Part shown: positions 3,327 through 11,021 of the stretch, one piece after another
How positions within the stretch are numbered: position 1 is the first letter of the stretch
Layout: each line of letters opens with the position of its first letter
Origin: Actinomycetota bacterium
GTDB lineage: Bacteria > Actinomycetota > Acidimicrobiia > Acidimicrobiales > Ilumatobacteraceae
Length of the DNA: 63,531 nucleotides
NCBI GenBank assembly: GCA_016870215.1
Contig: VGCD01000010.1
Location: 1 to 63,531 of the forward strand
Reading direction: 5' to 3'
Notes under the pieces: generated by a model
The model's database searches: none
The model's input: the letters and a program-made list of their open reading frames with translations, nothing else
Told to the model about the DNA's origin: nothing
Made by a program: the position numbers and the translations under genes

Positions 3327-4742
3327 GTGACAATGGTTGACCTCACCAGCGAATTTGATTCCGACACTTTGGCGCGAGTTCTCGATGCCGGCCGGTCGAT
3401 GGGGGCAGATTTCTCCGAGGTGTTCATCGAAGACAAGCGGTCGGTCTCGGCCGGTCTCGATGACGGCAAGGTCGAGCAGGTCACGAGCGGGCGCAACCGC
3501 GGAGCCGGCATTCGAGTTGTCGCGGGTGACACCACAGGTTTTGCGCATACGGCCGATCTCTCCGAGCGCGGGCTCATCGAGGCCGCTCAGGCCGCCGCCG
3601 CCGCAGCGCGCTCAGGTGGTGGTGGCACCAAGAAAGTGGCCTTGTCGTCGCCTCGTCGACATCCGGTCAATGTGGTGCGCGTCTTGCCGGGCTCTGTACC
3701 GAAATCCGACAAAGTTGCTCTTCTCATGCGCGCAGACGACGCTGCACGAGGAGTGCATGGTTCCATCGTTCAGGTGTCGGCTGGCTACGCCGACAGTGTG
3801 CGACGCATTCTGGTTGCAAACAGCGATGGCGTGCTCGCATCAGATGAACAAGTGCGTTCATTGTTCCGTGTGAGTGTGGTTGCCGACGGCGACCTGGGCA
3901 TGCAAACCGGGTACGAATCAATGGGCCACACCATCGGATACGAAGTGTTCGAACACAACGATGTCGGCGACCTTGCGGTTGCGGCTGCGCGTCAGGCGGT
4001 CACAAAGCTGCGTGCGCGACCCGCACCCTCTGGTGCCATGCCAGTGGTTATCAAGTGTGGCTCTGGCGGGGTGCTCTTCCACGAAGCATGTGGGCACGGC
4101 TTGGAAGCAGATCTCGTGGCGAAGGGTGCGAGTGTGTACCGCAATCGTGTCGGTGAACTTGTCGCATCACCGCTTGTCACGCTTGTTGATGACGGCACCA
4201 TGACGGCCGAATGGGGCGCAATTGGTATCGACGATGAAGGTCACGACAGTCAGCGCAATGTGCTCATTCAAGATGGCATCCTCACTGACTACATGTGGGA
4301 CTACTTGCGCGCACGAAACGACAATCGTTCGCAAAGTGGAAATGGTCGCCGTCAGTCATATGCCGACTTGCCGATGGTGCGCATGACCAACACATTCGTG
4401 ATGAATGGCGACAGTGATCCCGATGACATCGTCAAGAACACCGACCGTGGCGTATATGTCGCCAAATTGGGTGGTGGAAGTGTCGACACGGCAACCGGAG
4501 ATTTCGTTTTCGGTATGACCGAGGCGTACCTCATCGAGAACGGCGAAATCACCGAACCAATTCGTGAGGGCAACCTCATCGGTAACGGACCGCAGGTGCT
4601 CGCGGACATCGACATGCTCGGCAACGACTTTGCCATGGGGAACCCTGGAACATGCGGCAAAGACGGACAAGGGGTGCCAGTTGGTGATGGCCAACCCACA
4701 CTTCGCGTGAAGAGTCTCACTGTCGGCGGAACGGCCGCCTGA
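3327..4742 (+). CDS. tldD: TldD/PmbA family metallopeptidase, TldD-type
   Basis: 471 residues. TldD is the metal-binding half of the TldD-TldE (PmbA) heteromeric peptidase, which trims unfolded or modified peptides. The zinc motif HEACGH lies at about residues 252-257 and matches the family HExxxH; the C-terminal GxDMxGND-like segment is also present. GTG 3327 and ATG 3333 are both usable starts. The pmbA partner begins 2 nt after the stop, so the pair forms one operon. No peptide-precursor gene is visible next to it, so general peptide turnover is the safest reading. Confidence 0.93.
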   Translation: MTMVDLTSEFDSDTLARVLDAGRSMGADFSEVFIEDKRSVSAGLDDGKVEQVTSGRNRGAGIRVVAGDTTGFAHTADLSERGLIEAAQAAAAAARSGGGGTKKVALSSPRRHPVNVVRVLPGSVPKSDKVALLMRADDAARGVHGSIVQVSAGYADSVRRILVANSDGVLASDEQVRSLFRVSVVADGDLGMQTGYESMGHTIGYEVFEHNDVGDLAVAAARQAVTKLRARPAPSGAMPVVIKCGSGGVLFHEACGHGLEADLVAKGASVYRNRVGELVASPLVTLVDDGTMTAEWGAIGIDDEGHDSQRNVLIQDGILTDYMWDYLRARNDNRSQSGNGRRQSYADLPMVRMTNTFVMNGDSDPDDIVKNTDRGVYVAKLGGGSVDTATGDFVFGMTEAYLIENGEITEPIREGNLIGNGPQVLADIDMLGNDFAMGNPGTCGKDGQGVPVGDGQPTLRVKSLTVGGTAA

Positions 4743-4744
4743 CC

Positions 4745-6127
4745 ATGTCGACTGCGTCACCAGCATCAGGGTCGACACCAGATTCTGTTCGTCAACTCCA
4801 AGACATCGCTGATCGAATCGTTGCCCAAGCCAAGCCCGGTGAGCAGATCGAGGCGTATGTGTCGCGTGCTCGTGAAACTGACATCCGTATTTACGAGGGC
4901 GAGATCGAACACTTCGTCAGTGCACAAAGTGAAGGTGTCGGTGTTCGCATCATCCGCAACGGTCGAACCGGCACGTCGTATGCCGGCACTCTCGATGTAA
5001 GCGCGTTGGAAGAAGTACTCGCTGAGGCACGTGAGAATGCAGAACTCGGATCAGTCGATGAGTGGGCAGGCCTTGCTGAGCCCGACGGGGTGCCGGTCGT
5101 TCCGCAACAACTATGGAATGAACAACTCGAGCATTTTCCTACCGAAGAGAAGATCGCAATTGCCAAGCGCCTCGAGAAAATCGCTCTGGCTGCCGATAAG
5201 CGCGTACGCGTGGAAGATGCGAGTTACAGCGATGTGTTCGCGGAAGAAGCATTTGCCACGACAACCGGAGTTCGATCTGGTGGGCGCGAGAACGGTTGTT
5301 ACGCATCCGTCGGAACATTGGCCGATGATGGTGACGAAACTCAGACTGGGTTCGGATTCTCTGTCGGTAAGTGGCCAGGCGAGTTCGACCTCGACAAGGC
5401 AGGTCGTGAAGCGGCTGAGCGCGCGACTCGACTATTGGGGGCGGTGAAACCTCCGAGCAAGCGCACCACTGTGGTGCTTGACCCGTATGTCACCGCACAG
5501 TTTTTGTCGATTATCGGCTCCACTTTGAACGGGGAGAGCGTCATCAAGGGACGCAGTCTCTTCAAAGACCGTTTAAACGAGACGGTTGCATCGTCAATGG
5601 TCACGCTTATTGATGATCCGACAGACTCTCGCGCATACACCGCCACGGATCTCGACGGAGAAGGCCTGGCCGCGCGCCGAAATGTGCTTATCGAACAGGG
5701 GCAATTGAAGAAGTTCGTGCACTCGTCGTACAGCGCGCGTCGTGCTGGCACAAAGAGCACTGGTAACGCCACACGGGGTGGTTTGGGCGGATCTCCCGGT
5801 GTTGGTTGTTTGGCTCTGCAACTGGTGCCTGGCACAGCGTCTCAGCAGCAACTCATCGCTGATATTGACGATGGCGTACTCATACAAATGGTGCAGGGGC
5901 TCCATAGTGGAGTGAACTCGATTTCGGGTGATTTCTCCACCGGTGCATCGGGTCTCCTGATTCGAAATGGTGCGACTGCTGAACCTGTGCGTGAGTTCAC
6001 GATTGCTTCAACGCTTCAGCGAATGCTGCAAGACATTGTTGCCATCGGTGGCGACATCGACTGGTTGCCGATGCGGGCATCGGGAGTCAGCCTCGTCATC
6101 CGTGATGTCACGATGAGTGGTGCCTGA
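4745..6127 (+). CDS. pmbA: TldD/PmbA family protein, PmbA (TldE)-type
   Basis: 460 residues, cotranscribed with tldD (2-nt gap, ATG at 4745). It shares the TldD fold, including a C-terminal half with GDFSTGASGLLIRNG, but lacks the HExxxH motif. This is the usual catalytically silent partner that assembles with TldD. The N-terminal half carries the EAYVSRARETDIRIYEGEIE-type strand region typical of PmbA. A 7-bp stem hairpin overlaps the stop codon. Confidence 0.92.
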   Translation: MSTASPASGSTPDSVRQLQDIADRIVAQAKPGEQIEAYVSRARETDIRIYEGEIEHFVSAQSEGVGVRIIRNGRTGTSYAGTLDVSALEEVLAEARENAELGSVDEWAGLAEPDGVPVVPQQLWNEQLEHFPTEEKIAIAKRLEKIALAADKRVRVEDASYSDVFAEEAFATTTGVRSGGRENGCYASVGTLADDGDETQTGFGFSVGKWPGEFDLDKAGREAAERATRLLGAVKPPSKRTTVVLDPYVTAQFLSIIGSTLNGESVIKGRSLFKDRLNETVASSMVTLIDDPTDSRAYTATDLDGEGLAARRNVLIEQGQLKKFVHSSYSARRAGTKSTGNATRGGLGGSPGVGCLALQLVPGTASQQQLIADIDDGVLIQMVQGLHSGVNSISGDFSTGASGLLIRNGATAEPVREFTIASTLQRMLQDIVAIGGDIDWLPMRASGVSLVIRDVTMSGA

Positions 6128-6153: not shown

Positions 6154-6750
6154 TCACGATGAACCAACAAGGGTGAGTGTTCCCTGCTGTGCTGCAATAG
6201 CGACAGCGGGTGCATGTTGCTCAGGCACGGCGATAGTCGCATTGTGGGTGTCAGTAGCAATGCCGACGAGAATGGCATTGTTGACCACGACGCGTGTCTC
6301 GACAACCACGTCGACCTTTGCACCGACAATCGACAGCGGCAGCATCACATCGTCGGGTAAGGCGACAGTTTTCCAACCTTCAGGTGTGAGCGTTGCGGTG
6401 GCACCGACATGAAGTTTGCTGATGACTTGGCCCGCGACAATGAGTGCGGAAGCGCTCTTGTCGGATGTGAGCAACACGAGTGCGTCACGAGGGGTGATTG
6501 CTTGAGGTACAGATGTGCGCATTGTGTTCTCAGGCGTGAGGGTCTCACCTGGTGAGATATCAGATGTTGCGACAAGCACTTCTTGAGTCGTTGCCCAGCG
6601 CTGCATCACTTTCTGCTGCGAGAGCACTTGCGACATCACGATGAGTGCGACAAAAACGGCGCAACATGCAGCTAACGCCCGTTGCCACTGCCGATTGAGT
6701 CGAAGTTGCTCGCTGACTTCAGCGACGCGACGTTTACTTAGTCCACGCAC
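6154..6750 (-). CDS. SAF-domain protein with one N-terminal membrane anchor
   Basis: 198 residues, GTG start. A cytoplasmic basic stretch is followed by one hydrophobic helix (about residues 24-42). An SAF domain (about 57-120) follows, with the typical VATSDISPGETLTPENT pattern seen in CpaB/FlgA-like proteins. No Tad pilus genes are nearby. It lies 50 nt downstream of the FmdB/Ruc-like gene on the same strand. In Mycobacterium the SAF protein Rv0990c lies directly downstream of Ruc (Rv0991c), so I infer the same two-gene operon. Function unknown. Confidence 0.75.
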   Translation of the reverse strand: MRGLSKRRVAEVSEQLRLNRQWQRALAACCAVFVALIVMSQVLSQQKVMQRWATTQEVLVATSDISPGETLTPENTMRTSVPQAITPRDALVLLTSDKSASALIVAGQVISKLHVGATATLTPEGWKTVALPDDVMLPLSIVGAKVDVVVETRVVVNNAILVGIATDTHNATIAVPEQHAPAVAIAAQQGTLTLVGSS

Positions 6751-6800: not shown

Positions 6801-7148
6801 TCATTCAGAACTGGTGGATCCGCTGCTCGATGCCGATGATAAAGCCGACGTTGAGGCTGACGTGGAGGACGAGTCTGTCGAAGACGAACTCGACGACGAA
6901 CTCGAATCGCTCGAGGAACTCGCCGTGGTGCTCGAGGTGCTGGATGTTGAGCCACCGGACTTCGAATTATCCGTCTTGTAAAAGCCGCCACCTTTGAAGG
7001 TGATGCCGACAGGTGTGAACACCTTCTTCACCGGGCGCATTGTGCCGTCACTCGGGTGGGCAGCTTCGGTGAGAGCATCGTCAGTGAACGCTTGTTGCAC
7101 TTCGATGGTCTCGCCGGTGTCGATGAACTTGTACACGTAGGTAGGCAT
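6801..7148 (-). CDS. FmdB/Ruc-like small protein lacking zinc cysteines, with a Ser-rich disordered tail
   Basis: 115 residues from the ATG at 7146-7148, with a GAGG-type ribosome site. Residues 1-65 follow the FmdB/Ruc pattern (MPTYVYKF, VQQAFTDDAL, VKKVFTPVGITFKGGGFYKT). The four cysteines of the family zinc ribbon are all absent; the protein contains no Cys. The tail (about 66-115) is almost entirely Ser/Thr/Gly/Asp and surely disordered. In M. tuberculosis the equivalent Rv0991c (Ruc) is a redox-controlled chaperone using those cysteines. Here only a non-redox chaperone-like role could remain (inference). A CIRCE-like element lies 26 nt upstream. Confidence 0.85.
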   Translation of the reverse strand: MPTYVYKFIDTGETIEVQQAFTDDALTEAAHPSDGTMRPVKKVFTPVGITFKGGGFYKTDNSKSGGSTSSTSSTTASSSSDSSSSSSSSSTDSSSTSASTSALSSASSSGSTSSE

Positions 7149-7174: not shown

Positions 7175-7201
7175 CTAGCAGTCGGGGGGTTCGAGTGCTA
7201 A
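7175..7201. promoter_or_regulatory. CIRCE-like HrcA operator
   Basis: The known consensus is TTAGCACTC-N9-GAGTGCTAA. Here the right half GAGTGCTAA (7193-7201) is exact. The left half CTAGCAGTC (7175-7183) matches 7 of 9 positions, and the spacer is exactly 9 nt. The element lies between the divergent starts of the Ruc-like gene (7148) and galU (7228), about 26 nt from each. HrcA control of Ruc-SAF is known in mycobacteria; control here is inferred. Confidence 0.7.
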
Positions 7202-7227: not shown

Positions 7228-8097
7228 GTGAAAGCGCGCACCGCAGTTATCCCCGCCGCCGGACTCGGCACCCGTTTTTTGCCGGTCACCAAGGCAGTGC
7301 CCAAGGAACTGCTTCCCATCATTGACATGCCAGCACTTCAGTTGGTCATGGATGAGGCCGTCGAAGTGGGAGTTGATCACATCGTGCTGGTGTCGAGCGC
7401 GCAGAAGCCTGGCATCGAGGCCTACGTGCGACCGGCGCCTGATGTAGTCGAGCGGGTACGCGCAAGCGGACGGGCAGAGTTGGCGGAGCGGTTGACACGC
7501 ATCGGTACCGATGTACGTGTATCAGTGGTGTACCAAGATGCGCCGCTCGGCCTTGGTCATGCTGTCGGTTGCGCACGCGATGTTGTTGCCGACGAACCAT
7601 TCGTTGTGCTGTTGCCAGATGAATTGATGGGCGATTCACATCTGCTGCAGAGTTTGGTTGATTCAGTTGACGCCACAGGGGTCGGTGCAGTCGGTCTCAT
7701 GCGCGTCGCCCGCGATGAAGTCAGCTCGTACGGCGTCATCACTCCGGCAGAGGGGGCACCACACGATGGGCCGTTTTGCATCGTGGATGTGGTGGAGAAG
7801 CCGAAGATGGAGGACGCACCGAGCAACCTCATCATCATCGGCCGATACGTGTTGACCCCAGATGTGTTCGACAAGATCGCACGCCTAACTCCGCATGCGA
7901 ACGGCGAGTTGCAACTAACCGATGCATTGCGCGCACAGTCACTTGAGTCACCATTGGCCGGCCTCATCAACAAGAGCGCTCGCTACGACACAGGAACACC
8001 GATGGGATGGTTGACAGCAGTCATCGACATTGCGCTGAACCGTCCCGATACGTCCAATGCCTTGCAGGCGTGGCTGCGTGGTCGAGTCGGGTTCTAA
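7228..8097 (+). CDS. galU: UTP-glucose-1-phosphate uridylyltransferase
   Basis: 289 residues, GTG start. It makes UDP-glucose from UTP and glucose 1-phosphate for envelope polysaccharides and glycolipids. The nucleotidyltransferase motif AAGLGTRFLPVTKAVPKE is at residues 10-27, and VVLLPDELMGD and VVEKPKMEDAPSNLIIIGRY follow at typical spacing. The length is that of bacterial GalU. galU followed by moeA and glpR matches mycobacterial order (Rv0993-Rv0994-Rv0996). Confidence 0.96.
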   Translation: MKARTAVIPAAGLGTRFLPVTKAVPKELLPIIDMPALQLVMDEAVEVGVDHIVLVSSAQKPGIEAYVRPAPDVVERVRASGRAELAERLTRIGTDVRVSVVYQDAPLGLGHAVGCARDVVADEPFVVLLPDELMGDSHLLQSLVDSVDATGVGAVGLMRVARDEVSSYGVITPAEGAPHDGPFCIVDVVEKPKMEDAPSNLIIIGRYVLTPDVFDKIARLTPHANGELQLTDALRAQSLESPLAGLINKSARYDTGTPMGWLTAVIDIALNRPDTSNALQAWLRGRVGF

Positions 8098-10001: not shown

Positions 10002-11021
10002 GTGGAGTTGGTAGATCCCTTTGGGCGTACCGTGCGCGATTTGCGAATTTCGGTGACGGATCGCTGCAACTTTCGTTGTACGTACTGCATGCCCGAAGAG
10101 GGAATGGTGTGGCTCGACAAATCGCACATCCTGACGTTCGAAGAAATCGAGCGAGTGGCGCGCATCTGCGTCGAACACTTCCACGTCGACAGTCTCCGGC
10201 TGACTGGTGGTGAACCGACGGTGCGTGCCCACCTTCCAGTGCTGATTTCAAAGCTCGCCGCCTTGCGGGTGCCCTCAAATGCGAACACTCCTCGAGCTGG
10301 CATGGCGCCAGACCTTGCGCTCACCACCAATGGATCTACTTTGCGAAACAACGCCAGCGAACTTCGTAGCGCAGGTCTTGAGCGAATCAATGTCAGCCTT
10401 GACTCACTGCAACGCGAAAAGTTCGAACGCATGACACGTCGCGATGAATTGCACAACGTGCTCGCGGGCATTCACGCCGCTCAGGCAGCAGGATTTACGC
10501 CTGTGAAGGTCAATGCTGTTATTGAGCGCGAAGTCAACGATGACGAGATTGTCGCGCTCGCAGAGTTCGGCCGTGACAACGAGGTCGAAGTTCGATTTAT
10601 CGAATTCATGCCACTCGATGCCAGCGATGAGTGGGAACGGAACAAAGTAGTGAGCCAAGACGAAATCGTCGCTCGCATCGAAGCGGTGCATCCGCTTCGC
10701 CAACTTCCTGCGCGTGGCGCTGCTCCGGCAGACCGGTGGGAATACGTGGACGGACGCGGAACCGTGGGCGTCATTCCCTCGGTCACGAAGCCATTCTGCG
10801 GAGACTGCGATCGTGTTCGTCTCACGTCCGACGGTCAGTTTCGTACCTGTCTCTTTGCGACGAATGAGTTCGATGTGCGTGCCTTGTTACGAAACGGTGC
10901 GAGTGACAGTGAAGTTGCCGACCTCATTCGTCAGGCAGTTGGCATGAAATGGGCTGGCCACCAAATCGGTCAGGTGACTTTCGTGAAGCCACGTCGCACG
11001 ATGAGCCAAATCGGAGGTTGA
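10002..11021 (+). CDS. moaA: GTP 3',8-cyclase MoaA
   Basis: 339 residues, GTG start. A radical-SAM enzyme that begins molybdopterin synthesis by rearranging GTP. The N-terminal cluster cysteines are C22, C26 and C29 (RCNFRCTYC). The C-terminal 4Fe-4S cysteines are C266, C269 and C283 (FCGDCDRVRLTSDGQFRTC). The conserved C-terminal Gly-Gly is present (MSQIGG). It follows moeA by 9 nt and precedes an enoyl-CoA hydratase gene by 2 nt. It would work with MoaC at 11.9 kb. Confidence 0.97.
   Translation: MELVDPFGRTVRDLRISVTDRCNFRCTYCMPEEGMVWLDKSHILTFEEIERVARICVEHFHVDSLRLTGGEPTVRAHLPVLISKLAALRVPSNANTPRAGMAPDLALTTNGSTLRNNASELRSAGLERINVSLDSLQREKFERMTRRDELHNVLAGIHAAQAAGFTPVKVNAVIEREVNDDEIVALAEFGRDNEVEVRFIEFMPLDASDEWERNKVVSQDEIVARIEAVHPLRQLPARGAAPADRWEYVDGRGTVGVIPSVTKPFCGDCDRVRLTSDGQFRTCLFATNEFDVRALLRNGASDSEVADLIRQAVGMKWAGHQIGQVTFVKPRRTMSQIGG

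Follow-up and report, generated by a model that had tools for sequence, protein, structure and literature searches.

The ruc/fmdB-like gene studied here encodes a protein in which every zinc-binding cysteine has been replaced, and the same state was found in nearly all the genomes of its family in which the gene was read. The gene lies in a stretch of 63,531 nucleotides (the window), from a genome whose family, referred to as f1 hereafter, we take to be Ilumatobacteraceae. The sequences establish that this protein cannot be under cysteine-based redox control and that it is kept by selection. The f1 protein is probably a redox-blind Ruc that is controlled transcriptionally, and whose chaperone activity we infer. 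A more specific reading is offered tentatively: a redox- and zinc-switched chaperone may have been converted once, in the f1 ancestor, to a zinc-free and permanently competent form, for which transcription is the remaining known gate. Ruc itself is known. The cysteine-less form is a variant for which we found no earlier report among the matches listed on Rv0991c, FmdB, Ilumatobacter chaperones and redox-regulated chaperones, in a search mostly confined to papers available without subscription. The features of the region are collected in Table 1.

Table 1. Positions of ruc, its parts and its neighbours in the window
Feature	Position	Strand	Remarks
SAF/CpaB-like gene	6154..6750	-	Downstream of ruc; SAF 17.9 bits (cut-off 21), CpaB 30.6 bits (cut-off 71)
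ruc/fmdB-like gene	6801..7148	-	115 codons and stop; translation of 115 aa with 0 Cys
C-terminal tail (Ser-rich, low complexity) with stop codon	6801..6968	-	From translation and tail composition
Residues 1-60: zinc-ribbon-like N-terminal domain with the linker box FKGGGFYKTD	6969..7148	-	Zinc ligands replaced
CIRCE-like inverted repeat (putative HrcA operator)	7175..7201	.	Between the divergent ruc and galU genes, 26 nt from the start codon of ruc
GalU-like nucleotidyltransferase gene	7228..8097	+	Divergent from ruc; conserved neighbour

A sequence-only reading of the window had proposed that the protein is a Ruc/FmdB orthologue lacking all of the zinc-binding cysteines, with the Ser-rich tail kept. 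These three points were confirmed. Orthology is indicated by the similarity over the whole domain, the FKGxGFYxxD box, the grouping in one clade with the four-cysteine proteins of the nearest family, and the CIRCE/HrcA operator. Residues 1-60 align over their full length with FmdB/Ruc proteins, and neither CxxC pair survives in the 115 residues, none of which is a cysteine: compared with cysteine-containing orthologues, the alignment gives C8F and C11T for the first pair, and the second pair (CPxC) reads A-HPSDG. The second loop is also longer (62 residues in the window protein, 58 in most of the four-cysteine rows). In two profile libraries, at the thresholds used, the sole matches were TIGR02605 (CxxC_CxxC_SSSS), whose positions 1-52 are covered, and PF09723 (Zn_ribbon_8). 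The likeness to the FmdB zinc ribbon is weak and stays below the curated cut-offs (17.8 bits against 31.3, and 13.9 bits against 34.4, respectively), the CxxC pairs being absent; annotation by CxxC-based models misses genuine Ruc orthologues of this kind. The FKGxGFYxxD box is present in all of the 123 f1 ruc loci. The f1 tails have a median length of 53 aa, 46% Ser and a median hydrophobic fraction of 0, a composition that suggests disorder; Ser, Thr, Ala, Pro and Gly together account for 89% in f1, 76% in the rest of the order and 91% in the named outgroup (medians).

The spread of the cysteine loss was examined in 140 distinct f1 genomes (25 and 121, with 6 shared). A ruc match was obtained in 125 of them; the 15 genomes without a match include a few that are more than 90% complete, and the gene therefore may not be indispensable. 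When two fragments (G100 and G154) were dropped, 123 loci could be read, and the domain is cysteine-less in 122 of them. Intact CxxC pairs, which in close relatives would have marked the window gene as a degenerate copy, were found in none of the 123. In the sole exception (L018), a single cysteine takes the place of Gly35, a residue that is conserved elsewhere in f1 and is not a ligand position. Among the named f1-like contigs, 17 of 17 domains likewise lack cysteine; some of these contigs represent organisms already in the f1 set. Outside f1, 131 loci of the order were read, from 124 of the 177 non-f1 genomes with a match: 119 loci have four cysteines in the domain, nine have three, three have two, and none has zero; two of the three two-cysteine loci (L190 and L191) are not complete on their N side. 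Among 50 named loci (L083-L132), mostly of Actinomycetota, 49 have four cysteines and one has a single one. The latter, L131 (CALSQR010000001.1, uncultured bacterium), is FmdB-like and keeps a GSGFY box and a Ser-rich tail. Finally, a search of 296 genomes of the phylum gave matches in 248, with scores of 127-143 bits for the 10 f1 genomes and of 72.5 bits for the best of the others. Complete loss was not seen among the 48 non-f1 Ruc-type loci read from this search, each of which has 3 or 4 cysteines; these loci overlap partly with those read earlier, and most of the phylum matches, the low-scoring ones above all, lie outside this set. Unrelated cysteine-less copies may occur elsewhere in the phylum.

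Partial changes of the zinc site were found in two other families. In f17 (L240, L242, L243, L246 and L168), the first CxxC is intact, one or both cysteines of the second pair are lost, and the site of the second pair is a D/H-rich loop (DHEH in two loci); by sequence, the zinc site has here been altered separately, and in part. In f34 (L163, L167, L170 and L177), the second cysteine of the first pair is replaced by Thr (CQRTGE or CERTGE) and three cysteines remain, which is, by sequence, another partial loss.

The sequence-only reading had also suggested that the loss be scored on a tree. Four cysteines are present in all of the four loci read from f40, the family nearest to f1. In a tree of 69 domains (62 columns, including the cysteine columns), for which the bootstrap had not settled, f1 forms one clade (100/97), f1 and the four-cysteine f40 together form another (98/93), and, of the four f40 loci, L233 is placed closest to f1 (85/87). 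L233 has four cysteines, and its loop is already as long as that of f1. The simplest reading of these sequences is a single loss on the f1 stem.

The cysteine-less domain is under purifying selection: the median dN/dS of the 121 f1 domains was 0.17 (IQR 0.13-0.23), as obtained from the 3,299 of 7,260 pairs whose dS was 0.2-1.5. The residues at and around the former ligand positions have become nearly invariant: Phe8, Thr/Ser11 and Pro32 are found in 121 of 121 domains, His31 in 120, Gly35 in 119, and Asp or Glu at position 10 in 118. In 48 aligned rows, Glu16 is invariant and Glu13 reaches at least 90%. The replacement residues are thus, as far as sequence conservation tells, new conserved features of f1 Ruc. 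A degenerate pseudogene is ruled out by this dN/dS value and by the near-invariance of the replacements.

The gene neighbourhood and the operator are retained to different extents. The GalU-like gene is divergent from ruc in 107 of 120 f1 loci, 77 of 131 loci of the rest of the order and 8 of 48 named outgroup loci; for the SAF-like gene downstream of ruc, which is probably co-transcribed with it, the values are 80 of 115, 62 of 124 and 6 of 47. The sequence-only reading had stated that the downstream SAF gene is kept; a SAF-like gene is indeed kept in most f1 loci; the one in the window scores below the SAF and CpaB cut-offs. Positions 3327-6127 hold two adjoining genes for TldD/PmbA-type proteases, on the strand opposite to the SAF/CpaB-like gene and ending just before its stop.

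The inverted repeat before ruc has no mismatch to a relaxed CIRCE pattern (minus strand), for which 0.07 matches are expected in the window. When the whole genome was scanned with up to two mismatches, four places were found: two precede groES-groEL (contig C8), one precedes a second groEL (C33), and one precedes ruc; the chaperonin genes were identified by Pfam Cpn10 and Cpn60. Paired CIRCE-like sites were seen in this genome (G000) at C8:34200-34275, before groES-groEL, and at C33:2892-2941, before the second groEL. Up to three mismatches added four places, and the pattern when reversed, as a control, matched 3 times on each strand, so only the best sites were used. In M. tuberculosis, HrcA represses groES, groEL1, groEL2 and ruc (PMC13091356, PMC7448276). 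The set found in the window genome matches this regulon, which supports orthology to the mycobacterial Ruc. A CIRCE site with at least 14 of 18 positions was present within 150 nt upstream of ruc in 39 of 122 f1 loci and 60 of 124 loci of the rest of the order (shuffled controls, 0.0003 or less), and CIRCE also lies upstream of most Streptomyces ruc loci. However, no site with at least 13 of 18 positions was recognised in 82 of the 122 f1 upstream regions, although HrcA was found in the window genome and in 43 of the 46 genomes scanned for it. Thus, on this evidence, HrcA control is not family-wide; turnover, a more distant site or another kind of control may account for the missing sites.

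What the loss may mean can be considered against the characterised Ruc of M. tuberculosis (Rv0991c). Ruc is described as redox-regulated, and conservation of the four cysteines is listed among the features of the family. The reduced, zinc-bound form is inactive, while oxidation removes zinc and gives chaperone activity (PMC7448276). The same work reports that the C8S/C11S and C29S/C32S proteins carry no zinc and, in the reduced state, protect against aggregation, that the disordered tail is required for holdase activity, that Ruc binds DnaK without added oxidant, and that a ruc mutant has weak phenotypes (PMC7448276); the last point suggests that the ancestral role may itself be modest. The f1 protein shares with M. 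tuberculosis Ruc its plan, in which a hydrophilic, disordered tail comes after some 50 aa of N-terminal domain (PMC7448276), and an HrcA regulon in common with groES and groEL genes. It differs in having no cysteine, in the replacement of the four zinc ligands and in the longer second loop. The residues after position 49, which are missing from an inactive Ruc truncation, would, judging from the alignment, include the GFYxxD box. With the engineered Cys-to-Ser proteins it shares the lack of a usable zinc site, and oxidant independence is expected by this analogy. In contrast to them, the f1 form is natural and fixed in a family, its replacements are newly conserved, and four ligands are gone rather than two.

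These comparisons suggest the following course of events. The redox-sensing zinc site would have been lost, most simply once, in the f1 ancestor, and rebuilt as a metal-free core made of Phe8, Thr/Ser11 and His31-Pro32, while the linker box and the Ser-rich tail would have been retained, and the HrcA operator retained in part of f1 (about a third of the upstream regions). By analogy, the loss of the site would leave the protein competent without oxidant: f1 Ruc most likely still holds unfolded proteins, passes them to DnaK, or both, without an oxidation gate. In the window genome, ruc would be repressed by HrcA along with groES and the groEL genes, until heat or proteotoxic stress released it. 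The proposal of the sequence-only reading, a chaperone-like factor freed from redox control, thus survives in the part concerning control, as a Ruc orthologue with no cysteine can have no Cys-zinc switch; as to the chaperone part, the protein is probably a chaperone and may be constitutively active. With Ruc, its neighbours and, in part, the chaperonin operator kept without the switch, f1 is a case of Ruc retained without redox control, in which the role of the zinc site can be separated from those of the tail and the linker. If the proposal is true, f1 Ruc is what the Cys-to-Ser mutant made in the laboratory looks like in nature, its zinc being replaced by a core without metal.

The structure predictions bear on a difficulty of this proposal. 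AlphaFold2 places the strands of the cysteine-less domain at residues 3-8, 14-18, 28-30 and 37-44, and those of a four-cysteine f40 domain nearly identically. The mean pLDDT was 76.8 for the former (89-91 over residues 1-40) and 75.2 for the latter, and 22 residues against 3 reached at least 90; neither pLDDT nor strand prediction is a measure of stability. The models are consistent with the same fold being kept without metal. In Foldseek searches of the PDB, neither model had a match at E 0.001 or better; both gave weak matches, with no E better than 0.08, to MCM N-terminal domains and to RbpA. The RbpA core was matched by both models through 2m6o and 6vvt and by the cysteine-less one also through 2m4v, a resemblance in fold without sequence homology shown. 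Zinc binding differs among RbpA lineages. A sequence search of the PDB gave no credible relative (best E 0.48) and found no solved Ruc structure.

Opening of the domain is the probable reason why the engineered Cys-to-Ser Ruc is active, whereas the natural domain, with its rebuilt core and the same predicted strands as the four-cysteine form, may stay closed. The protein would then be a stable zinc-free fold without holdase function, in which hydrophobic and loop changes replace zinc and which serves another constant role, e.g., in partnership with the SAF/CpaB-like neighbour or as an adaptor for DnaK. The shared strands with the larger number of high-pLDDT residues, the new conservation at positions 8, 11, 31, 32 and 35, the weak RbpA and MCM matches of both models, the binding of DnaK by Ruc without added oxidant (PMC7448276) and the SAF-like neighbour in 80 of 115 f1 loci all fit this explanation. 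However, the linker box and the low-complexity tail are conserved, the tail being needed for the holdase activity of Ruc (PMC7448276), and ruc still has a chaperonin operator in the window genome. We regard the explanation as somewhat unlikely.

It is improbable that the redox-blind Ruc proposed above instead senses metal or redox state through other residues, such as His31 and acidic ones, or is activated in another way, e.g., by heat. The conservation of His31, of Asp/Glu10 and of Glu13 and Glu16, together with the D/H-rich loop that replaces the second pair in the related family f17, speaks for such sensing, but the window protein has no cysteine for thiol redox sensing, and a single conserved His would make an unusual structural zinc site.

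The sequence-only reading had further raised the possibility of a second, cysteine-containing Ruc elsewhere in the genome. One FmdB protein above the PF09723 cut-off does exist in the window genome (C1:108751-108975). It has a CxxC pair, CxxxH and a CCGGSC tail but neither an FKGxGFY box nor a Ser tail, and belongs, by its sequence, to a subfamily other than Ruc. Searches for this subfamily succeeded in 18 of 27 genomes of f1 and in 5 of 5 of f40; among other families 9 of 18 genomes matched, with G026 and G040 matching weakly, at ruc itself. In the nine f1 genomes without it, including the one-contig G052, no protein exceeded the PF09723 cut-off. Judging from this distribution, the subfamily most likely predates the cysteine loss and is dispensable. 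As a different subfamily that occurs in f40 alongside the four-cysteine Ruc and was not found in 9 of 27 f1 genomes, it is neither the source nor the replacement of the cysteine-less Ruc. It is very unlikely that the window gene is a degenerate paralogue on its way to loss and covered by this protein, even though the two share a genome: the cysteine-less form is found in 122 of 123 loci with a dN/dS of 0.17 and conserved synteny, the other protein is of a subfamily of its own that went undetected in nine of the 27 f1 genomes, and some genomes have the cysteine-less copy as the only one found.

Other forms of compensation were also considered. A cysteine-containing FmdB as a general replacement was rejected on the absence of the subfamily from those nine genomes. 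Hsp33 (PF01430), an alternative redox holdase, was rejected as well, as it was found in none of 45 f1 and order genomes, including the window genome, while the control search succeeded in 8 of 14. A general purge of cysteines or zinc ribbons is not supported, on few data: the FmdB paralogue retains its cysteines, MoaA at 10002-11021 retains CxxxCxxC, and f1 genomes of 4-6 Mb likewise carry the cysteine-less form.
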